Below, one piece after another: positions 27,456 through 41,365 of a DNA stretch of 46,099 nt. Made by a program: the position numbers and the translations under genes. The stretch lies in assembly GCA_016929595.1 (NCBI GenBank), contig JAFGIN010000008.1, forward strand, positions 1 to 46,099, read 5' to 3'. How positions within the stretch are numbered: the first letter of the stretch is position 1; the number at the start of each line of letters is the position of its first letter. The notes under the pieces are model-generated. The model did no database searches. It had not been told where the DNA came from and saw only the letters and a program-made list of their open reading frames with translations. This DNA comes from Chitinispirillaceae bacterium (GTDB taxonomy: Bacteria; Fibrobacterota; Chitinivibrionia; Chitinivibrionales; Chitinispirillaceae).

Positions 27456-27489
27456 TGTGCTATGTGCTATGTGCTATGTGCTATGTGCT
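27456..27489 (+). repeat. Tandem 7-bp repeat (TGTGCTA, about 4.9 units)
   Basis: Four exact copies of TGTGCTA are followed by a partial unit TGTGCT. A 7-bp unit changes reading frame when its copy number changes. No convincing gene spans it, so it is recorded as a simple repeat. Confidence 0.9.
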
Positions 27490-27908
27490 CATGGTGACGG
27501 GAAAAGCGGAGGTCTGTCGTACCGAGCGGATGTCACAGTAAAACGAAAAAAAATCCCGTATTGGCGGGGAGACTGAAATTGATGGTTAATGCTTTAACGA
27601 AAAAACAAGACTATGTTTTTCTATAATTCATCACACACACCGGTTCACTATGCCCTGCCCCCCCCATGTCTGTATCGTGTAACAAGTAAAATATTGTTAT
27701 ATGGGTCTAAATAAAACATTGGTGGGGAAAAAGGGAACTCACAGAACACACTTTGAAAGATGCCCTCTTCCTGAAAGTGCGGTTTCTGATATTGTTCCCC
27801 ACAATTTTTATTTGTTATTATCTCCAGTATACCAATATTTATTCGTGTTTTCCATAAATATAGTAATCTTTTACTTTGAATTTTATTAATTATTTTTGGA
27901 GGAAGTAT

Positions 27909-30665
27909 ATGTTTTTACATAAAATTTTTTTAAGAACAATTGTTTTGCTGTTGGTTGTCTTTATTCATTCGTCATTCGCAAAATGGGTTGATTTCAACAA
28001 TACCACTTCTGCTATAGGAAAAAAAACGGAAATAAAATGCACTGGCATTGATGTCCATGGTAATGAATCCGCCAAACTAGAGTTGAAAAAAGTCGATAAA
28101 ATGAAGGTATCAATAAAACTCAACGGTGTCCACCTTAACAAGGTAAAAGCAAAAGACGGGTTGAAATATTCCGATATGGTGCTGCCTGATGCCGATCGCT
28201 ATCGGAAACTTGGTGCACCGGCAGTTCCCATGAAAGTAATTATGGTGGAGATTCCAGCGAATGCAGAAGCTGAAGTTTCACTGTTGAAAAAAGCCGAAAA
28301 GAAAATGGATGATATCACACTGGTACCGGTACAGCCTATTCCGGAAGATAATGCTGATGACAGCAATATTCCCTTTGAGAAGGATAATTTTCTGTATCAA
28401 TCTGCATCATTGTATCCGGAAAAACAGATCGTCAATACGTCAACGTTTTTCGCTCGTGACCGGAAGATCCTGGTAATTCATTACTGTCCGGTTCAGGTTG
28501 TTTCCGACGAGGAATATGCCGTCATTACTACCAATGCGGATATAATCATTAAACTGAACAGTACAGGTGAAGATAATATTTCGGCGGGGCTGAGTTCATC
28601 AAGTTTTACCGCAATGACGGCAACAGGTGCCATTACATTACCAAGTACCTATGATAACGGAACTGTCGGAGAAAATCCTGAACGCTATATGATCCTGATG
28701 AACGATCAGTTTTACGGCAATGCACGATTGAACGAGTTCATAGAGTGGAAAAAACGTAAGGGATATTCGATTAATGTCGTAAAAACATCGGATATCAATT
28801 CAAATGGTCATCCGCATGTCGATACCATTATAAATTATATGCGTGCATTAGCAGATAGCGTCTATCCGACCTATCTTCTGATTATAGGTATGAAAGACAG
28901 TACAGACGGTGTGGCTGCATGGAAATATAGCTTCAATGGAACCCTCCGGTATACCGATCTTTATACATCTTGTCGTGATGATGCCGATTTCGTTCCGGAC
29001 CTGTTCTGCGGAAGGCTCGTTGCCGCTGATACGGCGGAACTATCTTCAATTTTGGAAAAAGTAATTGAAATGGACAGAAATCCACCGTTTACTGATATGT
29101 ATGACAAGACTGTTGTTTCAGCATACTTTCAGAGTGGAAGAATTTTTACTGAAACCGGCGATGCCGTTGCCTGTTACTTTGAGCAAGATGCAGGTGGTGT
29201 TAATTACGAAACGTGGCGTGCCTTTGTCGGATCGGTTGACAGTACGACACCATGGCCTTGTACGGTGGATTCCATTAATGCACAGATTCATTCCATCCTC
29301 TGGCATGGTGCAACCGGTAATGATGCACTTATTGGATCGCGTGTTTCATCTAAGTTTCTAAATAATGCTGATGCCTGTGACACTATAACCAATCGGACAA
29401 ATGAAGGTATCGCAATTTTGTTTCATCGTGATCACGGGGGTACTGATGGATACGGTCATCCTTCATGGCGTACTCCGGATGTTCTCAATCTTACCAATGG
29501 TGTTAATCGTCCGTTAGTTCTATCAATTGACTGCAGTACGGGCGAATACTGGATTGCGAATAATTTCACCCATGCGTGGGTAACTCATGTCAACGGTGGT
29601 GCATATGGTGTTGTCGCAGCGGTAGGAAGTTCACCATCAGGGCCGAATGATTATCTGGCTCACGGAATTTATATGGGTTTTCTCGATGATTACCGTTCCT
29701 GGCATAACAATTCCACTGCACCGGATTTCACTTCTGATTTTTCGGTACCGGATACCACGGGCGGTTATCTTTACAATTTGGTTGACGGTGCGGCAACAAA
29801 ACTGGGCCAGATGCTCTGGTTCGGAAAATGGTATGTGATGTCCCGTTACGGTGATGGTGTTTATGCGGGACAAAATCAGTCCGAACGTATTTCCCGCCTT
29901 TATCATGTTTTCGGTGATCCGGAAGCTGAAGTCGTTCTTCATACACCTCAGGTCCAGACTATACATCATTCGTCTGACATTCCGACCGGTTCACAGACAG
30001 TGAATGTCATTACCGGAAATGAGGATGCACAGGTATGTCTTTACAGTGAAGCATTGGGAATTCATCAGGTTGCAATTGGGGATACAGTTTCCTTTAACAT
30101 CAATCCTTCGACAACCGGTAGTATTCATGTGACGGTTACCGGTTTCTCTTTGCGACCATATGAAGGGATTATAAATGTAGGAAGCTCTACCATCAATGAT
30201 GTATTAGGTTTTGAAAATGCATCGCAGTGGCGATTCGCTGTCGGCAGCGGGTTTCTGACGAACGATACCACTATCAAGACCGAAGGTAATGCTTCGATTC
30301 AGGTCGGTGGATACAATTATCGGGAAATCACCAGTATTCCGATGAGTACTACTGAGATAGCCGGTGAAACATCCACACTTGCAATCGATTTATTTGTCGG
30401 GCTTATACAGCCTAATCCGTCGTGGATCGGACAGATTCAGCTGCATGTTTCCTGTCCGTCTGCCGGTATTTACCATCAATATCTCGGTTCTCTCGAGTTG
30501 ACAGATCTGCCTCGTGGCGTATTTTCTACGGTAACCTTCTTTGTTCCCGGAAATGTCCTTTCGGTATTGCAGGGCGATTATGACGATTTTGATATCTCAA
30601 TCGACCTTAATACCAATTATGGATCTGGAAGATATTTTCTGGATAACATGAGATTCGTACCATAA
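27909..30665 (+). CDS. Peptidase C25 (gingipain/PorU-type) secreted protease
   Basis: I choose ATG at 27909, giving 918 residues, because GGAGGAAG stands just before it; the upstream in-frame ATG at 27876 has none. A signal peptide (about 1-28) is followed by a propeptide-like domain (to about 240) and the C25 catalytic domain (about 255-620) starting RYMILMNDQF. The catalytic pair is probably His509 (FHRDHGG) and Cys542 (SIDCSTG); their 33-residue spacing equals that of RgpB His211/Cys244. An Ig-like domain and a C-terminal jelly-roll domain follow. I see no sorting-type CTD, unlike the nearby protein at 33481. PorU, the type IX signal peptidase, is also a C25 enzyme without CTD, so a sortase role is an alternative. 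It is the first gene of the cassette. Confidence 0.88.
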   Translation: MFLHKIFLRTIVLLLVVFIHSSFAKWVDFNNTTSAIGKKTEIKCTGIDVHGNESAKLELKKVDKMKVSIKLNGVHLNKVKAKDGLKYSDMVLPDADRYRKLGAPAVPMKVIMVEIPANAEAEVSLLKKAEKKMDDITLVPVQPIPEDNADDSNIPFEKDNFLYQSASLYPEKQIVNTSTFFARDRKILVIHYCPVQVVSDEEYAVITTNADIIIKLNSTGEDNISAGLSSSSFTAMTATGAITLPSTYDNGTVGENPERYMILMNDQFYGNARLNEFIEWKKRKGYSINVVKTSDINSNGHPHVDTIINYMRALADSVYPTYLLIIGMKDSTDGVAAWKYSFNGTLRYTDLYTSCRDDADFVPDLFCGRLVAADTAELSSILEKVIEMDRNPPFTDMYDKTVVSAYFQSGRIFTETGDAVACYFEQDAGGVNYETWRAFVGSVDSTTPWPCTVDSINAQIHSILWHGATGNDALIGSRVSSKFLNNADACDTITNRTNEGIAILFHRDHGGTDGYGHPSWRTPDVLNLTNGVNRPLVLSIDCSTGEYWIANNFTHAWVTHVNGGAYGVVAAVGSSPSGPNDYLAHGIYMGFLDDYRSWHNNSTAPDFTSDFSVPDTTGGYLYNLVDGAATKLGQMLWFGKWYVMSRYGDGVYAGQNQSERISRLYHVFGDPEAEVVLHTPQVQTIHHSSDIPTGSQTVNVITGNEDAQVCLYSEALGIHQVAIGDTVSFNINPSTTGSIHVTVTGFSLRPYEGIINVGSSTINDVLGFENASQWRFAVGSGFLTNDTTIKTEGNASIQVGGYNYREITSIPMSTTEIAGETSTLAIDLFVGLIQPNPSWIGQIQLHVSCPSAGIYHQYLGSLELTDLPRGVFSTVTFFVPGNVLSVLQGDYDDFDISIDLNTNYGSGRYFLDNMRFVP

Positions 30666-30679
30666 TCATTTTTCATCAT

Positions 30680-30697
30680 CGGGTTGGCAGCAACCCG
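30680..30697 (+). other. Intercistronic hairpin after the C25 gene
   Basis: CGGGTT and AACCCG pair around a 6-nt loop in the 69-bp gap between the C25 and PEGA genes. No T run follows, so it is more likely an mRNA-stability or partial-attenuation element than a full terminator. Confidence 0.4.
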
Positions 30698-30734
30698 GTA
30701 TTTCCCCATTGCCGGATAGCAAAGGAGAGATTAG

Positions 30735-31661
30735 ATGTTACAGTACCGGATGGGTATGAATAGTACTGCGGTCAGGTGTTTTTTGATTTTGTTAGTTTTC
30801 TTCATTTTACCCTCATCCGGGTCTGAAATCAGGATTCTGTTTACCCCGGTCGTGAATAATACCGGAGATTCAACACTGAACACACTGGGGGCCATGCTTT
30901 TCGGACACTTTACGGAGAATCGAGGAGTGTACTTGTGGCTTGCTGAAGATGAGAGCGTGGTTGATTCATTTCCGTCCGAACATCTGCTTGATAAGGCACG
31001 GAGTGCGAATGCCGGATATATAATCTGGGGGTGTTTCGACACGATGAATACGGACAATTTTCTGAGGGTTCATATATTTGAAATGTCAAGTGGTATTGTC
31101 AATAACATAGAAATTGGTATCCAGAAGAATCAGAACCGTATTATCCTGGCGGATATTTTGTTGAGTAAAATAACTCTTGCATTGAAAAGAAGTATGATGT
31201 CCCATCTGATTATCACCAGTAATCCGAAGGGAGCGGAACTATATATTGACAGTGTATTCGTCGGAACCACACCGTATGAGGAACTGGTTGATCCGGGATC
31301 GTATACAATAAATGTCAGGAAGGAAGCGTATGAACATTTCTGGCAGAAAGCTTCATTTCTGAGGAACAACACGTATCAGTATCATATTCCACTCAAAAGC
31401 AGAACTGCCGTTGTCGAGGATAACGGTATGCGCAGATGGCTTGTCGCGACCGTGCTTCTCTCGGCAGGAACAGCCGCCTCATTTATCATGCGACAGAGAT
31501 CATTCGACCGCTATCGATATGCCACTCCTCCGGGGAATTTTGATGCACTGTTCAGAAATGCCATGGGTTTCAATATTGCCTCATACTGTTTCGCGGGGGT
31601 GACCACCGTGAGTTTATCCATTACCATTGTTAAGGTTTTCAGAAAGCCGGTCGTGCAATGA
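30735..31661 (+). CDS. PEGA-domain membrane protein
   Basis: The 308-residue protein has a signal peptide (about 1-31). An N-terminal TolB- or CsgG-like alpha/beta domain follows (RILFTPVVNNTGDS; AGYIIWGCFDTMNTDNFLRVHIFE). Then comes one PEGA domain at about 156-225 (SHLIITSNPKGAELYIDSVFVGTTPYEELVDPGSYTINVRKEAYE, read in parts), and two C-terminal hydrophobic helices (about 233-250 and 278-298). PEGA domains are common on surface and envelope proteins and are thought to bind peptidoglycan or other wall material. GGAGAG precedes the ATG. The stop overlaps the next gene's start by ATGA. Confidence 0.8.
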   Translation: MLQYRMGMNSTAVRCFLILLVFFILPSSGSEIRILFTPVVNNTGDSTLNTLGAMLFGHFTENRGVYLWLAEDESVVDSFPSEHLLDKARSANAGYIIWGCFDTMNTDNFLRVHIFEMSSGIVNNIEIGIQKNQNRIILADILLSKITLALKRSMMSHLIITSNPKGAELYIDSVFVGTTPYEELVDPGSYTINVRKEAYEHFWQKASFLRNNTYQYHIPLKSRTAVVEDNGMRRWLVATVLLSAGTAASFIMRQRSFDRYRYATPPGNFDALFRNAMGFNIASYCFAGVTTVSLSITIVKVFRKPVVQ

Positions 31662-33391
31662 CTCATCGCATTACCGGCTTGTTTGCGGTTACCGCACTGT
31701 TCGTGTTGTCCTCCTGCATGTCACGTTCAAACCCCTATGATCCCGATGGTCCCCGTTTTATCGATCCGACCTTTTACCGTACCTTGCAGTTCCGTGATAA
31801 ATATACTGAACAAATTATTGATGATACCGTTGTATGCGTTTATCAATATGGAGGCAATGTCGACACCGTGAAAGCGTACCCCACACAGAAGTTGACAGTG
31901 AAAATAAAAGACAATCTGGCTGTTACCCGTGTATGCTGTACGTTAATGACCGTTGCCATGAGGAATTACACCGTTCTGAGTAATATTCCGATTACTTTGT
32001 TTTCGGAAATGAGTGATACGGTCATCTATCTGACTTCGGAAGTAGCCTTTGCAGTAAAATGGGATATGGGTAACACTGGAATTAACCATTTAAACGTGCA
32101 GTTGCAATGGTATGCAAGTGGTTCCGATTTTTTTTCTTTTTACAGATTGTTACGCACTGATCCGGATTCCACTTCGGATACACTGTTTTTCTCCGGAAAC
32201 AGAGATGATACCGTATGTTATGATTCAACTGCAGAGGAGAACAGCTGGTATAAGTATAATGTCACAATCGGTTCTTTGAATGGTGAGGTTCAGCGTAGTA
32301 GTGATCTCATAATGCCGATACCCAACAAACCACCTTCATATTCCGATATTCATGAAGTAACGGCAACCAATTTCACCTGTCTTCATGTTGTATGGGAACA
32401 GAACCGCAATGATGATTTCGAACGGTATATCATTTACCGAAGTACTGATTCACTTACCTTTGATTCGGTTTTCACGTTGACGGAACAGTCGGATACTGAA
32501 AGGACTGATATGTCTATAGAAAAAGCGGGGCAACACTGTTTTTATTTTGTCGAAACCATTGACGATAAAGGACTGGCCGCCCGGGGTAACACGGTTTCAG
32601 GCATTAACCGGATAGCGCTCGATAGCAATCGGATTTTGGTGTATGAGAGAGAGTTCACCATGGGGAGAAATCACCGTGACGGAGTACCATTTAATGAGGA
32701 ACCGGAACATGTCGTATACGTATCCACCTTTCTTATTGACCGGTATGAAGTGACCATTGACCGGTATGTCTCGTTTCTGAATAATGGAAACGGAACACAT
32801 TATCATGATATGTTGAGCCGTATCGGAATTGTGGCGAAGGACACTCTTTTTTCATATGAACCGGCAGTGAAAAACCTGCCGGTAACGTTCATATCCTGGA
32901 ATGATGCCGAGGCTTACTGCAATTGTATGGGAGGACGACTTCCAACTGAAGCTGAATGGGAGAAGAGTGCACGCGGTACCGATAAACGTGAGTATCCCTG
33001 GGGCGATGATTTTTATCTGAATCAGTCGCCACCGGTTTACCTGCTCGCCAATTATGTGGTTGGAAATTCTGGAGTAACGGAATCGAAGTATACGGATGAC
33101 GGAGGAAAAGGAGCGGTTAATATCGGAAATTATTTGCAGGGAATATCACCGTACGGAGTATATGAAATGGCGGGAAATGTAAAAGAGTGGTGCCGGGACT
33201 GGTATCAAACATCGTATGATGTTAATGACAGGGTCGATCCCCGGGGAAGTGAGTTCGGTTTAACCAAGGTGATACGGGGAGGAAGCTTCAAATCATATCC
33301 GAATGAGATGTTCACCACTACAAGGTCACGCGCAAGACCAGAAGAAGTCATGGAGGATGTCGGTTTCCGGTGTGTGTACGAAAAAAAATAA
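31658..33391 (+). CDS. Lipoprotein with Fn3-like and FGE-sulfatase (SUMF1) domains
   Basis: The 577-residue protein has a lipoprotein signal (LFVLSSC, Cys20). A beta-rich region with one or two fibronectin-III-like domains (about 130-325) follows, and then a formylglycine-generating-enzyme-like domain (about 325-577) with FTMGRN, FLIDRYEVTIDRYVSFLN, PVTFISWNDAEAYCNCMGGRLPTEAEWEK, WGDDF, GNVKEWCRDWY and the terminal VIRGGSFKS...RSRARPEE..DVGFRCV. True FGEs convert a sulfatase Cys to formylglycine; surface-exposed members of this fold more often act in ligand binding or peptide modification. No sulfatase is encoded nearby. The ATGA overlap with the PEGA gene means joint translation. Confidence 0.9.
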   Translation: MTHRITGLFAVTALFVLSSCMSRSNPYDPDGPRFIDPTFYRTLQFRDKYTEQIIDDTVVCVYQYGGNVDTVKAYPTQKLTVKIKDNLAVTRVCCTLMTVAMRNYTVLSNIPITLFSEMSDTVIYLTSEVAFAVKWDMGNTGINHLNVQLQWYASGSDFFSFYRLLRTDPDSTSDTLFFSGNRDDTVCYDSTAEENSWYKYNVTIGSLNGEVQRSSDLIMPIPNKPPSYSDIHEVTATNFTCLHVVWEQNRNDDFERYIIYRSTDSLTFDSVFTLTEQSDTERTDMSIEKAGQHCFYFVETIDDKGLAARGNTVSGINRIALDSNRILVYEREFTMGRNHRDGVPFNEEPEHVVYVSTFLIDRYEVTIDRYVSFLNNGNGTHYHDMLSRIGIVAKDTLFSYEPAVKNLPVTFISWNDAEAYCNCMGGRLPTEAEWEKSARGTDKREYPWGDDFYLNQSPPVYLLANYVVGNSGVTESKYTDDGGKGAVNIGNYLQGISPYGVYEMAGNVKEWCRDWYQTSYDVNDRVDPRGSEFGLTKVIRGGSFKSYPNEMFTTTRSRARPEEVMEDVGFRCVYEKK

Positions 33392-33480
33392 ATAAATTTT
33401 AAAATAAAATGTTCATTCGGTTGTGGAAGATCGTCATTAATTATGAGAGAACGATTTTTTCAACTTCAAAGGAGGATGTT

Positions 33481-34347
33481 ATGAAAAAAGTACTAATGGT
33501 AGTCGCGATTATAGGTGCCGGTTTGATGGAAAACAGTTACGCTTGTTACGATCCTGCTCTGGATTGGGCTGTCGGAATATATTTGAATAATAATGAAGTG
33601 ATGGATTTCACGGTTTTTACCGCCAAGGGTGAAAACGGGGTTAATTTTTATTTCAATGGTGATGCACTTCAGCCAGTGTATACTTTCCGTAGCCATTACG
33701 ATCCTGACGCACAGGTGGAACTTGAGTTTGCGTTCGGTGACCAACCACCTGAAGCGGAAGTCGCCAACAAGGATCAAACCTATTATGAAAGAATGGGAAA
33801 TATCAGAATATCCATTGATACTTCAAAGGATCGGTCAAGCTATGATTTCCCGAAAGCTGTGGAGATAGAGCTTGAATGGCTCAATGAGATGGGAATAGTA
33901 AATATGCAACGCGTTGACCGGGAAAAAATTGTTGAGAAAATTGCCGATGGAAGATTGATTTTTTCGAAAGATCTTTCCAGTCATGAATTCATGGAGTTTG
34001 AAGACTGCAGAGCAAGTGTAGCCTCGCCGCTGAATTTACCATCGAAAGAGTTCAAACCGTTAACATCGAAAAACCGGAGAGAATTTAAACATTTTAACTC
34101 CAACAGTATAAATATTATTTACAACGGTGTCCGGTTGTCATTCTCCGGTGTTTCATCTGTCGGAGATTTCACCATCAGCATTTTTGATATGCAGGGAAAG
34201 CGGGTAGATCATTTTTATTCGCAAATAAGTAGTGGTAGTGTTGGCTTAGTTGATCAAAAATACGTCGGTATACCGGATGGCCATTACATCGCGGTACTCA
34301 ACGGTGTTTCGGTACAAAAATGCATACGGTTCACTACGATCAATTAG
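33481..34347 (+). CDS. Secreted protein with type-IX-like C-terminal sorting domain
   Basis: I choose ATG at 33481 (288 residues), because AAAGGAGGATGTT lies directly before it and a clean signal peptide (MKKVLMVVAIIGAG..SYA) follows; the longer reading from 33409 has no such support. The middle (about 22-200) is an unrecognised acidic domain with two early Cys and many Asp/Glu/Tyr residues. The last 75 residues (VRLSFSGVSSVGDFTISIFDMQGKRV ... GIPDGHYIAVLNG) show the beta pattern of type IX secretion CTDs, like the GH26 enzyme at 38986. It may be exported to the surface and could be a substrate of the C25 peptidase. Confidence 0.72.
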   Translation: MKKVLMVVAIIGAGLMENSYACYDPALDWAVGIYLNNNEVMDFTVFTAKGENGVNFYFNGDALQPVYTFRSHYDPDAQVELEFAFGDQPPEAEVANKDQTYYERMGNIRISIDTSKDRSSYDFPKAVEIELEWLNEMGIVNMQRVDREKIVEKIADGRLIFSKDLSSHEFMEFEDCRASVASPLNLPSKEFKPLTSKNRREFKHFNSNSINIIYNGVRLSFSGVSSVGDFTISIFDMQGKRVDHFYSQISSGSVGLVDQKYVGIPDGHYIAVLNGVSVQKCIRFTTIN

Positions 34348-34375
34348 TGTTGTATTCCTGAGAGGAGGGGGGGAT

Positions 34376-34417
34376 ATGGATTCTGACTGGTTTCAACTGG
34401 AGACGGTATCTGACTGA
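34376..34417 (+). CDS. Possible 13-codon leader peptide before the sigma factor
   Basis: An ATG preceded by an exceptionally strong purine tract (GAGGAGGGGGGG) opens a 13-codon frame, MDSDWFQLETVSD, that stops 5 bases before the sigma-factor ATG at 34423. The sigma gene itself lacks a comparable ribosome-binding site. The arrangement suggests translational coupling or reinitiation, but there is no evidence that the peptide itself functions. Confidence 0.4.
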   Translation: MDSDWFQLETVSD

Positions 34418-34422
34418 AAAAT

Positions 34423-35010
34423 ATGGAAACGAAAACAGATGATACGGAGTTGATTCGATTATGCCAACAGGATAAAAAGAAACACTTTTCCGCTCTTGTA
34501 GAGAGATATTATGAGTTTGTTATCAATTTCTGCTTCAGGTTTTTCGGAGAAATGGAAACGGCAAAAGATGCGGCACAGGATATTTTCATTAAGGTATATC
34601 TTGCAATCGAATCACAGAAACGGGAATCATGTCCTTTTTTTCACTGGCTCTGTAGAGTAACCTCTAATTACTGTCGAGACATTTACCGGAAAAAACAGAA
34701 TCGGCAGAAAGCTGAAAGTGAAAAGACAGTCGTAGAGTGGTTTGAGGAACAGCTTGTTGCCAATACCCAGACCTGGCTGACAGAGGAGACAAAATCTGCG
34801 ATTGAAGAATTGAACTCTATGTTATGTGGACTTGATAAAGATGAGCGTCTTGTGATTATTCATTCCTTTTATTCGGCCATATCATCACATGAAATTGCCA
34901 TTATAATGGGTTTGCCGGAATATACCGTGCGAAGGAAAAAAAAGAAGGCTCTTGAAAAACTCAAAGTTGAATACAATCAACGGAAACTGGTTGAATATGC
35001 AGCGAGATGA
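34423..35010 (+). CDS. ECF-family RNA polymerase sigma factor
   Basis: The 195-residue protein has a sigma region 2 (about 18-95: SALVERYYEFVINFCFRFFGEMETAKDAAQDIFIKVYLAI; FHWLCRVTSNYCRDIYRKK) and a region 4 helix-turn-helix (about 125-180: LDKDERLVIIHSFYSAISSHEIAIIMGLPEYTVRRKKKKALEKLK, read in parts). It directs RNA polymerase to a small regulon. The downstream overlapping gene encodes a membrane FecR-type protein, the classic place for an anti-sigma factor or signal transducer, so the pair probably forms a surface-signalling switch. The cassette genes upstream are its likely targets, which is inference. Confidence 0.93.
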   Translation: METKTDDTELIRLCQQDKKKHFSALVERYYEFVINFCFRFFGEMETAKDAAQDIFIKVYLAIESQKRESCPFFHWLCRVTSNYCRDIYRKKQNRQKAESEKTVVEWFEEQLVANTQTWLTEETKSAIEELNSMLCGLDKDERLVIIHSFYSAISSHEIAIIMGLPEYTVRRKKKKALEKLKVEYNQRKLVEYAAR

Positions 35011-36565
35011 AAAAGAGTTTCGGTCATTTCTTGAACAGGGGTTTTCCACTGTGCCTGCTGACGCTGAATTCGTTCGTGGTGTGGCCACCTTCATAACTAC
35101 ACTTGACGAAATGGATACGGATTGCGGGATTCACCATAATATTAGATCGTTTTCCTGGAAAAAATATTTGCCAATTGGACTGGCGGCCCTTTTGTTCCTG
35201 TCCGTTTTTTCTTATGTCACTATCATTAAAATGGCCGGTAATCCGACTGATGAACTGATTGACAAATTGAATGCCGGGTCTGGAGCAGATACCAAGGAAG
35301 TATCCGTTATCAGCAGTATCAACACTGACTTATATTCGACAGGAGATGCAATCAGGATCAGGGAAACGGTAACAAACGACGAAGATAATCAGTTGCTTTT
35401 TTCTATCGGTAAATATGTTACGATACTTCTGTTTGAGAATTCATCCGTCCGTATTCTTGAAGCTGCTGATGATGATTCGCACATACAGTTGCTTTCAGGT
35501 AATATCGCGGTTTCGGTAGTACCCGGCAAAATAGGGAAATTTGAGATTGAGACGAAAGGGGCTTCTTTTACAGTGGTAGGTACATTCTTTTCGGTATCTG
35601 CTGATTCCGGCCGGACTGAGTTAAGAGTATACCGTGGGAAGGTATGTGCCAATGGCAAACGAATGAACAAAAATGTCATTGTCGAAAAAAATCAGCAGTG
35701 GTCTGACAAAAAGGAAATTGTGTCGGATGTCAACATGGATGAACATTCGCTGAGGCTACTTGAGAAAGTTTTTAAGTCGGGTAAGATATCATCTAAAATC
35801 ACTTTGCGTAAAAGCCGGAAAATGTGCGGAACACCAGATAGGAAGAGACGAACTATCACAAAAAAAATGGATGAAAAAAAGGAAAATGCGGTTAATTTGT
35901 TCACATCAATGATTGCAAAAGATATGTATCAAGAGGGGAGTGCTATACTTCGTGGTATCGCTGGAACACCAGATGCTGATACTGTATGTATTCTGGTGTT
36001 GAAACTGGCCGACAGAAAGATTGATCATTTCCGTTTTACTGATGCTCAGACACTGCTGGAGATGGTTATTGATATATTTCCTGAATCCATTTATGCGGAA
36101 AATGCCTATATACGATTATTCAATCTGCATAAAAGTGTAGGAAAGTCATCATCTGAGCAGTTACTGATAATGTGCAAACAATATCTTTCCCGGTTTCCGG
36201 AGGGTAATTTTGTCCGGGAACTGAAATATGAAAAAATCATACTGTTGCAGAAACTCAAGCAGTATCGTGAATGTTACCATGCTATAAGCTTGTATAGAAG
36301 AAAATACCTTAATCATGAAATGGATGATTACCTTTTATATCTTAACGCGACACTGCTGCGCGAACATATCGGCGATAAAAAGAATGCTGTTCAGATGTAC
36401 AGGGAATGTTTTGAGCGGTATCCACAAAGTCGATATGCGGAAGATGCTCTTTACTGGATTATAAAAACCAGTGATGAAACTGACAGAGAAAATTATGCCT
36501 TCTTATACAAAAAGAACTATCCGGAAGGACGATGGATAGCGGAAATTACTTCAGTTTCAAAATAA
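34997..36565 (+). CDS. FecR-domain membrane protein with C-terminal TPR-like repeats
   Basis: I choose ATG at 34997 (522 residues), which overlaps the sigma gene by 14 bases; the earlier in-frame TTG at 34952 has no Shine-Dalgarno support and would overlap by 59. Residues 1-52 are cytoplasmic (possible anti-sigma segment), and one transmembrane helix lies at about 56-78 (PIGLAALLFLSVFSYVTII). A FecR domain follows at about 110-245 (GDAIRIRET; LLSGNIAVSVVPGKIGKFEIETKGASFTVVGTFFSV, in parts). A basic linker (270-300) and TPR/YbgF-like helical repeats (about 305-515: YPQSRYAEDALYWI) follow. It probably senses an envelope signal and gates the sigma factor. The TPR tail on a FecR protein is uncommon. 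Confidence 0.85.
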   Translation: MQRDEKEFRSFLEQGFSTVPADAEFVRGVATFITTLDEMDTDCGIHHNIRSFSWKKYLPIGLAALLFLSVFSYVTIIKMAGNPTDELIDKLNAGSGADTKEVSVISSINTDLYSTGDAIRIRETVTNDEDNQLLFSIGKYVTILLFENSSVRILEAADDDSHIQLLSGNIAVSVVPGKIGKFEIETKGASFTVVGTFFSVSADSGRTELRVYRGKVCANGKRMNKNVIVEKNQQWSDKKEIVSDVNMDEHSLRLLEKVFKSGKISSKITLRKSRKMCGTPDRKRRTITKKMDEKKENAVNLFTSMIAKDMYQEGSAILRGIAGTPDADTVCILVLKLADRKIDHFRFTDAQTLLEMVIDIFPESIYAENAYIRLFNLHKSVGKSSSEQLLIMCKQYLSRFPEGNFVRELKYEKIILLQKLKQYRECYHAISLYRRKYLNHEMDDYLLYLNATLLREHIGDKKNAVQMYRECFERYPQSRYAEDALYWIIKTSDETDRENYAFLYKKNYPEGRWIAEITSVSK

Positions 36566-38985: not shown

Positions 38986-40242
38986 TCAGTTAAATACAAT
39001 TTTTTTATTAAGTAGCTTAATTGAGGAATTCTTTACTACTATAATATAACTTCCCTTAGCAGCAACTGAACTGATCGGCAAAGCCGATGATCCAGACACT
39101 ACCTTTCTGTAAATTAGCTTGCCATTAAGATCGAAAAGACTTAAAGTATAGTTGCTTTTTTGTGCAGTTCCATCAATCGATACCTTATTTCTATTAAAAG
39201 TAACATTCGATCCGGTAATCTGTGAAACACTCTTTGTAGCAACTGCTGGACCGTATTCAGCCATAATATTTGGGACTTCATCACGGGTAATCACAAGATC
39301 ATGAGCATAAACTGATTTCAAATAATTTTTGTCTACCCCAAATATATGCTCTGTATGCCATACCATAAACCATGACCACATTGCATCCTTACTCTTGCAC
39401 AAGTCAGGATTTGGTGGTGTACCACATTCATGGTAAACTATCGGCATAGTACTTCCATGAATGGCTTTAACTGCCTTATACATACTTTCATGTGCAGAAT
39501 TATCTCCATACGTATCTGTTCCAACAAGATCATAATATCCTGTTCCTGGATTATACCCATTATCAGCACTGCCATCGTATCCCAGAAACCAGATCAGATT
39601 ATTTAAACCTTTGGTTTTTGTATAGTAGTCAAACATGAATTTCCATAATTTTTTAAAACCCTCACCACCATTCATATCCCACCAAAACCAGCCTCCACTG
39701 CACTCATGCATCGGCCTCCAGATAACCGGTACGTTGGCCTTTTTCAGTTTCAGCAGATGCGCAGCAATTCTATCCAGGTCAAGCATCATCTCCCTATTCT
39801 CATTAGTCCCGACTGTAAGGCACTTGTCAACATAACCCGCAGCCAGGGGCTTACCGTTATTTTTACTCGCTTCATAGCCTTCCCCAACTGTCGGAGCACC
39901 CCAATGCCACATTATTGTTGGAATCCCACCAGCTTTCCACCAATCAATCGCATCCTGTATTTCATTGTTATTTGCACTTTCATTTATAAGGTCCTGACCA
40001 CGAATTGCAGGATATTTCCCAGTCGTCTGGTACACATATTCCGTTTCATCAATCTTAGCCCATGGTGCATACATCTGACCAGATAAAATCTTTTTACCAT
40101 ACATGTCATAAATGTAATTTAGAAGGGCCTGAGCTTCCGGTGATGCATCAGGTATAACTGGCACAGCTGCATAGGTTGATATTAAAAAGAACATTATTCC
40201 ACCTATCAGGCTCCTAACAATATTAAACCGTTTAGTCGACAT
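38986..40242 (-). CDS. GH26 beta-mannanase with type-IX-like CTD
   Basis: The 418-residue secreted enzyme has a signal peptide (about 1-26). The GH26 TIM barrel (about 30-335) has acid/base Glu180 in WRPMHECSGGWFWW and nucleophile Glu272 in PIVYHECG, plus IMWHWGAP, all typical of the family, which hydrolyses beta-1,4-mannan or mixed glucomannan. The last 75 residues (VSIDGTA..LSLFDLNGKLIYRKV...AAKGSYIIVVKN) form a sorting-type C-terminal domain, so the enzyme is probably surface-bound or secreted by a type IX-like system. It lies 29 bp downstream of the CE1 esterase and probably shares its transcript. Confidence 0.95.
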   Translation of the reverse strand: MSTKRFNIVRSLIGGIMFFLISTYAAVPVIPDASPEAQALLNYIYDMYGKKILSGQMYAPWAKIDETEYVYQTTGKYPAIRGQDLINESANNNEIQDAIDWWKAGGIPTIMWHWGAPTVGEGYEASKNNGKPLAAGYVDKCLTVGTNENREMMLDLDRIAAHLLKLKKANVPVIWRPMHECSGGWFWWDMNGGEGFKKLWKFMFDYYTKTKGLNNLIWFLGYDGSADNGYNPGTGYYDLVGTDTYGDNSAHESMYKAVKAIHGSTMPIVYHECGTPPNPDLCKSKDAMWSWFMVWHTEHIFGVDKNYLKSVYAHDLVITRDEVPNIMAEYGPAVATKSVSQITGSNVTFNRNKVSIDGTAQKSNYTLSLFDLNGKLIYRKVVSGSSALPISSVAAKGSYIIVVKNSSIKLLNKKIVFN

Positions 40243-40271
40243 AGGAATCTCCTTTTTGAAGGTAAATTGTA

Positions 40272-41324
40272 CTATTTAAGAATTTTTTGAATTATTACTA
40301 ACCTTCCATCGATACGGAACAGGCTGGATATCTTTGCATTAGGCGCCATGCGTTGCACCATCAACCGCTCACTCCCGGATTTGAACACGAGCTGAGTCTG
40401 CGACACGAGTCGAGTCTTCAGTGAATTCCCGTTCAGGCCATCACGAGACAAGGTGATTCCTGTCGCAGTGCTGGTGAAAATATGCGGAACAAAATTATAG
40501 AAACAGCGATTGAAACAATTCCAGTCATGACCTAATCCCTGTTCATACTGGAAGGTATGGGTGATACCCTTGCTGTCGAAGAACGCATGGTACTGGTCGG
40601 CTGAACCTTTCGTAAGGTTGTCCGCGGTTCCTACCCCGATAAAGATGTAGCGCATTTTCTCCTTTATTACTGACGGATCCGGAACATTCTTTTCGGGCGC
40701 ATTTGGTATAGCGGGTGCAAATGCCCCTATCCAGTTGAAGACGTCGGTATTCGTCAGCCCGAAATTTAGCGTCTGCCCTCCTCCCATTGACAAACCGCCG
40801 ATGGCGCGACTGAGGGGGTCGGTCAAGGTGGAATACGTTTTGTCAATGTACGGAATCAAGTCTTTCAAAAGCAAATCTCCGAATTTTGCAAAGTTGCTCA
40901 TAGTACCATTATCACCCACAGCGTTATCAGGGAAAACCACTATCATGGGGACGATCTTTTTATCCGCCAGATAGTTATCCAGGATGTTATTTGCTTTCCC
41001 ACTGGACCCGTTGGTCCATGAGGGATGGTCATCGCCGAGGCCATGGAGTATGTAAAGAACCGGATACTTCTTATCGGTAGAATATCCCGGCGGAAGCCAT
41101 ATCGAATACAATTGTTGCCCGTTATTCCGGGTCGGATAGGATAGAGACTTTTTCACCTCCCCTTGCGGCACATTCTTTACCGCATCCCATCCGTTCGGGG
41201 GAACGGGTAGATTCGCGTTACCGGAAGAACCGGTGGTTGCCGGATAAACAGGTTTAGAATAAATTGCGACCAATACAAAACAGACAAACATGTATACTAT
41301 TCTTGTAAATGGTACTTTAAACAT
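40272..41324 (-). CDS. CE1-type esterase (feruloyl/acetyl esterase-like), secreted
   Basis: I choose ATG at 41324 (350 residues) because AAAGGAGAAAAA directly precedes it; the reading from 41342 only adds six residues. A signal peptide (about 1-30) is followed by an alpha/beta-hydrolase of the esterase D/CE1 group: LYILHGLGDDHPSW oxyanion region, nucleophile Ser179 in GGLSMGG, and probable Asp235 (VGTADN) and His266 (GLGHDW). The enzyme would remove acetyl or feruloyl groups from hemicellulose and so help the neighbouring mannanase. The C-terminal 60 residues resemble a shortened sorting domain (SSLFRIDGRLVIIQK). Substrate choice between acetyl and feruloyl cannot be made from sequence alone. 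Confidence 0.88.
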   Translation of the reverse strand: MFKVPFTRIVYMFVCFVLVAIYSKPVYPATTGSSGNANLPVPPNGWDAVKNVPQGEVKKSLSYPTRNNGQQLYSIWLPPGYSTDKKYPVLYILHGLGDDHPSWTNGSSGKANNILDNYLADKKIVPMIVVFPDNAVGDNGTMSNFAKFGDLLLKDLIPYIDKTYSTLTDPLSRAIGGLSMGGGQTLNFGLTNTDVFNWIGAFAPAIPNAPEKNVPDPSVIKEKMRYIFIGVGTADNLTKGSADQYHAFFDSKGITHTFQYEQGLGHDWNCFNRCFYNFVPHIFTSTATGITLSRDGLNGNSLKTRLVSQTQLVFKSGSERLMVQRMAPNAKISSLFRIDGRLVIIQKILK

Positions 41325-41365
41325 TTTTTCTCCTTTAAACATTGAAGTTCTAACCTATTAATTAT

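Follow-up and report, generated by a model that had tools for sequence, protein, structure and literature searches.

The stretch analyzed here (referred to as the window) comprises 46,099 nucleotides, positions 1 to 46,099 of contig JAFGIN010000008.1 from a Chitinispirillaceae bacterium (assembly GCA_016929595.1; 6.6 Mb in 224 contigs), and carries six genes that may form an envelope-signaling cassette. All six open reading frames (ORFs) lie on the + strand between 27909 and 36565. The first encodes a C25 (gingipain-type) peptidase with a propeptide (27909..30665; Pfam PF01364, 1.4e-38, and PF08126, 1e-9). It is followed by a PEGA-domain membrane protein (30735..31661; PF08308, 3e-14), which is conserved in the seven cassettes described below and consists of an N-terminal signal, the PEGA domain, and two hydrophobic segments at the C terminus. 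Next come a surface lipoprotein with the formylglycine-generating enzyme (FGE) fold (31658..33391; PF03781, FGE-sulfatase, 6e-49) and a small secreted protein, recognized through alignments, that we call the CTD (C-terminal domain) protein (33481..34347). The set ends with an extracytoplasmic function (ECF) sigma factor containing regions 2 and 4 (34423..35010; PF04542, 2e-12; PF04545, 6e-9; TIGR02937, 1.6e-28) and a FecR-TPR transmembrane regulator (34997..36565; Pfam FecR, 7e-11, with YfiO/TPR). The PEGA and FGE genes meet in an ATGA overlap, and the ECF and FecR genes share 14 bases. The ORF coordinates thus bear out the gene set, strand, and both junctions described in the original prediction, which was made from this DNA alone.

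To follow the cassette beyond the window, we searched the window's genome and those of 60 relatives (61 in total) with the FecR, CTD, and PEGA proteins and called genes on the fetched loci. Seven cassette copies were found in six genomes of the same family, two of them in the window's genome: the window copy and a second full six-gene set at C70 (L060). The core of CTD, PEGA, FGE, ECF, and FecR genes is present in G001, G006, G011, and G017, and G008 holds a near-complete PEGA-FGE-ECF-FecR set with a CTD gene nearby. Over the seven copies in six genomes, the five-gene unit shows roughly 23–41% identity to the window copy. The C70 genes run in the order C25, CTD, PEGA, FGE, ECF, FecR, whereas in the window the CTD gene stands between FGE and ECF. 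Identity between the window and C70 proteins is 24% for FecR and 40% for FGE; judging from their sequences, the two cassettes are old paralogues. Relatives of the FecR protein in the genome scan came only from Chitinispirillaceae or "Fibrobacter sp." metagenome-assembled genomes. The six-gene set is more than a group of chance neighbors. The original prediction had proposed a search for co-occurrence of all six families in the window's order; a five-gene core does recur, but the C25 gene lies outside it and the gene order is shuffled. Its impression of an unfamiliar combination holds up well: this is a genuine recurrent signaling cassette, for which no description was found in the literature searched.

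Side-by-side comparison of the cassette upstream regions revealed a common element, TGTTCA-N16-CGTTAT. With a spacer of exactly 16 and at most two mismatches, it is found 5′ of every one of the seven CTD genes and 5′ of six of the seven sigma genes; a best-match table for spacers of 15–17 places it before none of the four C25 genes and none of the seven PEGA genes. When a weight matrix was run over 654 kb, the 13 top-scoring sites all fell at the seven cassettes, with two in each (before CTD and before ECF) except for one in the window, after which the score dropped from 20.6 to 14.8 bits at the next site. The matrix was built from nine of these 13 sites, and the other four (before ECF in L061, L062, L063, and L065) were recovered by the scan. 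In the window, the CTD gene lies directly 5′ of the sigma gene, and the single predicted ECF promoter site, TGTTCA-N16-CGTCAT (33410..33437, + strand), ends 43 bases 5′ of the CTD start codon; its two boxes agree with the consensus in 11 of 12 letters, and the spacer has the expected length (shuffle p 0.003). The window's genome contains one perfect match to the core motif, at the C70 CTD gene, and all four perfect matches to the extended motif in the six genomes are at cassettes. Because extended-motif sites are confined in this way, and three of the four noncassette one-mismatch sites checked lie inside long ORFs, the regulon seems to consist of the cassette alone. A wider sigma regulon was considered and rejected: outside the cassettes, genome pattern matches occur at near-control numbers, and most other best sites checked are within open frames. 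The conserved promoter of its own type before the sigma operon suggests that the sigma factor, as far as can be predicted from DNA, appears to be autoregulated.

The arrangement of terminators sharpens this picture. In all five copies with that gene order, the gap between CTD and PEGA contains a strong hairpin and, behind it, a T-rich stretch; at C70, a terminator hairpin also occupies the gap between C25 and CTD, and none was found in the window's own intergenic gaps. Since the hairpin separates CTD from PEGA, the orthologous CTD gene is probably its own sigma-driven unit, and in the window the CTD, ECF, and FecR genes are probably on one transcript. A single operon under the sigma factor, running from C25 to FecR, is contradicted by the promoter and terminator positions. 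From these same positions, the sigma factor most likely drives its own gene, FecR, and the CTD protein but not the peptidase or the FGE lipoprotein. The original prediction had suggested looking for a shared −35/−10 motif before 27909 (C25), 30735 (PEGA), and 33481 (CTD), with the peptidase, the lipoprotein, and the CTD protein as targets. The motif is found before 33481 only, and the CTD protein survives as a target; the peptidase and lipoprotein genes are without it, and the paralogous and orthologous cassettes show the same split. A leader ORF of 13 codons lies just ahead of the sigma gene, at 34376–34417, and has a strong stretch resembling a Shine-Dalgarno sequence (GAGGAGGGGGGG). Its stop lies five bases 5′ of the sigma start codon, which itself has no clear Shine-Dalgarno sequence, and translational coupling from leader to sigma gene is possible.

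The C25 peptidase stands apart from the core. In the window protein, the gingipain dyad aligns with the His of DHGG and the Cys of IDCSTGEYW. C25 genes adjoin four of the seven cassettes (window, C70, G006, and G008), and their products belong to different C25 subfamilies: those of G006 and G008 differ from the window type, and the G006 protein (G006:C254, L064:5182-7404) has a cellulose-binding CBM_3 domain. The flanks fetched around the G001, G011, and G017 cassettes gave no C25 match in their ORFs; two of these cassettes are on short contigs. With 2–12 C25 genes per genome across the six genomes, we roughly estimate a 2–4% chance of finding one within ∼6 kb of a given cassette; three independent associations are therefore unlikely to arise by chance (on the order of 1e-4 by our own estimate). 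The C25 gene is linked to the cassette, outside its fixed core, and is probably only a companion. A plasmid collection contained no relative of the window C25. An identification of the protein as PorU was rejected: only a PorU2-type model matched, at 30 bits versus a cut-off of 450, and a separate PorU-sized C25 protein is encoded at C120 in the window's genome. The long gene-poor region 5′ of the C25 gene contains a GTGCTAT tandem repeat of ∼5 copies (window ∼27456–27492). On the opposite strand (window 38986–41342) are a GH26 glycoside hydrolase with a weak Por_Secre_tail match and an esterase, and the C70 cassette is followed by a GH10 xylanase gene.

The FecR-TPR regulator comprises short cytoplasmic helices, a transmembrane helix at about 58–78, a periplasmic FecR domain, and a periplasmic TPR solenoid. 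Its structural model includes the 58–78 helix, at low confidence there, and reaches a pLDDT of about 90 in the TPR part. The fold comparison, which covered that part, gave the YbgF TPR as the closest fold (Z 16.1, root-mean-square deviation 2.3, 114 aligned). The H-x3-C-x2-C zinc anti-sigma (ZAS) motif is not present at the N terminus of the window protein or its orthologues.

The lipoprotein, which is 39–41% identical to its orthologues, consists of a lipobox, a signature, a beta-rich middle, and the FGE-fold head. The signature forms the start of the protein after the signal, C-x-x-R-x-N-P-Y-D-P-x-x-P, and is encoded in the window at 31715..31753 (+ strand; CMSRSNPYDPDGP). Among 557 ORFs of the fetched loci, all 16 occurrences are beside FecR, a count biased by the fetching of these loci through FecR, PEGA, or CTD matches. 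A genome-wide test free of that bias, using the signature as a degenerate DNA pattern, gave ten matches in 168 genomes of the phylum, every one at an ECF/FecR locus; the reversed-pattern control gave zero matches in the same 168 genomes. Of these ten matches, four come from a wider PEGA-ECF-FecR-TPR-lipoprotein arrangement in which the lipoproteins examined carry PKD domains, and a related lipoprotein in G041 has FN3 and laminin-G-like lectin domains. Because the signature is limited to ECF/FecR loci with FGE, PKD, or FN3-laminin G heads, the evidence supports the lipoprotein as a candidate dedicated FecR/ECF partner with exchangeable heads; that it acts as a sensor is our inference. The wider arrangement occurs at L066, L069, L075-L080, and L085 (e.g., G000:C12:35600-40500), with parts missing in some loci, and some of its FecR-TPR proteins have an N-terminal zinc-finger-like motif. 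A visual search for a common promoter in these loci found nothing clear. At L074, FecR and PEGA domains are fused in one protein.

The FGE head itself lacks the two copper-binding cysteines that the enzyme has in its active site, close to the C terminus: the CHESYCNRYR of the enzyme aligns with KSYPNEMFTTTR in the window, and the orthologous heads, likewise without Cys, have KNYPEEL..TYR at the active-site position. Since both cysteines are lost, an active formylglycine-generating enzyme was rejected, and the predicted function of the head is expected to be binding rather than catalysis.

The CTD protein is less readily classified. Twelve relatives share an A-C opening of the mature part (A-C..P in the window protein), RSHY-like and EL-W (EL.W) motifs, and an invariant C176, and the invariant cysteines suggest a disulphide. 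Residues 112–154 match TIGR04292 (CGP-CTERM-anchored Cys-rich; E 1e-5, below cut-off), which we take to be an archaeal Cys-rich surface protein family; five of eight family members match it. The structural model gave no usable PDB match. Elsewhere in the phylum, relatives are encoded in operons of a TIGR02147 (DUF4423) regulator, a small lipoprotein, and a CTD protein (L071:8571-11109, L082:9154-11605, L083:2211-4665, L084:9487-12064, and L093:379-2781), and the L084 lipoprotein has a carboxypeptidase-regulatory-like domain. Thus, the pairing of a CTD-type secreted protein with a regulator and a lipoprotein recurs, the regulators differing. For the type IX translocon, SprA pieces at C34 sum to 445 bits (cut-off 200), and SprA was found in 61 of 61 genomes searched; hence, a type IX system is present.

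Taken together, these observations make it likely that the cassette is an envelope-signaling module with a self-regulated ECF sigma factor at its center. FecR-TPR would sit in the inner membrane, where its short N-terminal cytoplasmic helices would hold the sigma factor, and its periplasmic FecR domain and TPR solenoid would receive a signal from the outer-membrane lipoprotein. The noncatalytic FGE-fold head of the lipoprotein would serve for binding, and the PEGA membrane protein would relay the signal or act as a scaffold. Once released, the sigma factor is predicted from the conserved promoter DNA to recognize TGTTCA-N16-CGTTAT and to transcribe the CTD gene and its own sigma-FecR pair. The CTD protein would then be the output of the sigma factor or a feedback signal, and the PEGA-lipoprotein pair and C25 would be separate units, not under the sigma promoter. 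In the window, the CTD gene seems to have moved to just before the sigma gene, and CTD, sigma, and FecR appear to share a single promoter. A more specific reading, which we consider less likely than not, is a TonB-receptor-free Chitinispirillaceae system in which a signature lipoprotein with exchangeable heads (FGE, PKD, FN3-laminin G) would signal through PEGA and the TPR tail to FecR/ECF, with an autoregulated secreted output that might report on type IX secretion or on contact with polymers.

Several observations weigh against this interpretation. The window promoter has a deviating −10 box (CGTCAT) and scores weakly against the leave-one-out profile (3.4 bits). The type IX secretion system (T9SS) sorting tail of the CTD protein is below threshold (TIGR04183, 14.8 bits versus a cut-off of 23), Por_Secre_tail matches only two of eight family members, the tail is degenerate in the cassette orthologues, and the structure prediction is poor (pLDDT 52). 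The lipobox is unusual in some of the orthologous lipoproteins, where R precedes the lipid cysteine. Finally, the absence of a zinc-finger anti-sigma motif at the FecR N terminus leaves both inhibition and activation of the sigma factor possible.

The best-surviving alternative, which we consider rather unlikely, makes the CTD protein the input: a PorA-like secreted reporter of type IX status whose feedback would reach the sigma factor via FecR-TPR, so that autoregulation would close a secretion-homeostasis loop. Since PorA, a small CTD protein of P. gingivalis, acts upstream of the PorXY-SigP ECF pathway (PMC7712824), the CTD protein here may equally be a feedback input. The type IX system inferred from SprA in all genomes searched fits such a role, as does a CTD gene that is a predicted sigma target and always near the sigma gene. 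However, PorA homologues are reported in Porphyromonas only (PMC7712824), the sorting tail is poor, and other members of the CTD family follow a TIGR02147 regulator and small lipoprotein, without FecR. We give little credence to the model first put forward for this DNA, in which the sigma factor drives all six genes, with C25 releasing the signal or processing the CTD protein. C25 genes of several subfamilies do sit beside four of seven cassettes despite their small number per genome, and the catalytic dyad is present, but no C25 or PEGA gene has a sigma-type promoter, a terminator separates C25 from CTD at C70, and three genomes have no C25 match in the fetched flanks. Least probable of all is a loose neighborhood of an ordinary FecI/FecR pair and unrelated envelope genes that stay together because rearrangement is slow: all of the families are common in the phylum and synteny alone can persist, but the cassette spans four genera and its proteins have diverged strongly, the promoter stays with the CTD gene when the gene order is shuffled, the window's genome holds a second copy, and the lipoprotein signature is exclusive to ECF/FecR loci.

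An envelope-signaling module of this kind would be of interest for several reasons. First, Fibrobacterota are anaerobic bacteria that degrade plant fiber, and the literature searched gave no description of how they sense across two membranes; the Fibrobacterota genome papers examined do not mention FecR, and no paper was found that joins "ECF sigma factor," FecR, PEGA, and anti-sigma. Second, both a promoter and a target gene can be predicted for the cassette, and its lipoprotein signature is exclusive, so the switch is directly testable. Finally, if the lipoprotein heads are sensors, one switch with varied heads would amount to a modular family of receptors that departs from the TonB-receptor paradigm.

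It is useful to contrast the cassette with known systems. In the fiber degrader Clostridium thermocellum, the RsgI/SigI systems are polysaccharide-sensing anti-sigma systems whose sensor heads vary between paralogues. The cassette likewise combines an alternative sigma factor, a trans-envelope regulator, and an outside binding head in a fiber degrader, but its putative binding head is on a separate lipoprotein and its envelope has two membranes. With GldK/PorK it shares an FGE-fold lipoprotein, for which TIGR03525 is the best NCBIfam match; at 101 bits versus a cut-off of 350, however, the cassette protein falls well short of that family and differs in its N-terminal half and gene context. Common to PorXY-SigP/PorA are an ECF sigma factor, autoregulation, a small secreted CTD protein tied to the pathway, and C25 and type IX components in the same cell, whereas the cassette has FecR-TPR instead of PorX/PorY, and the kinship of its small protein to PorA is only putative. 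ECF/FecR signaling as such is of a kind already known. As in the FecI-FecR-FecA cell-surface signaling of the E. coli type (reviewed in PMC9249621), an ECF sigma factor adjoins an inner-membrane FecR-domain regulator, and the signal would run from surface to transcription. Pfam found no TonB-dependent receptor among the six cassette proteins, the flanking ORFs being only partly scanned. Nothing in the literature searched matched the gene combination, the lipoprotein signature exclusive to this lineage, the FecR with its TPR tail, or the predicted CTD output. Unlike the FecA system, the cassette has an FGE-fold lipoprotein and a PEGA protein in the receptor's place, its FecR has a periplasmic TPR tail, and its sigma factor appears to have two targets, its own gene and that of a small secreted protein. 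Overall, the best reading is of a lineage-specific ECF/FecR variant in which a lipoprotein, a PEGA protein, and a periplasmic TPR tail would stand where the TonB-dependent receptor would be.

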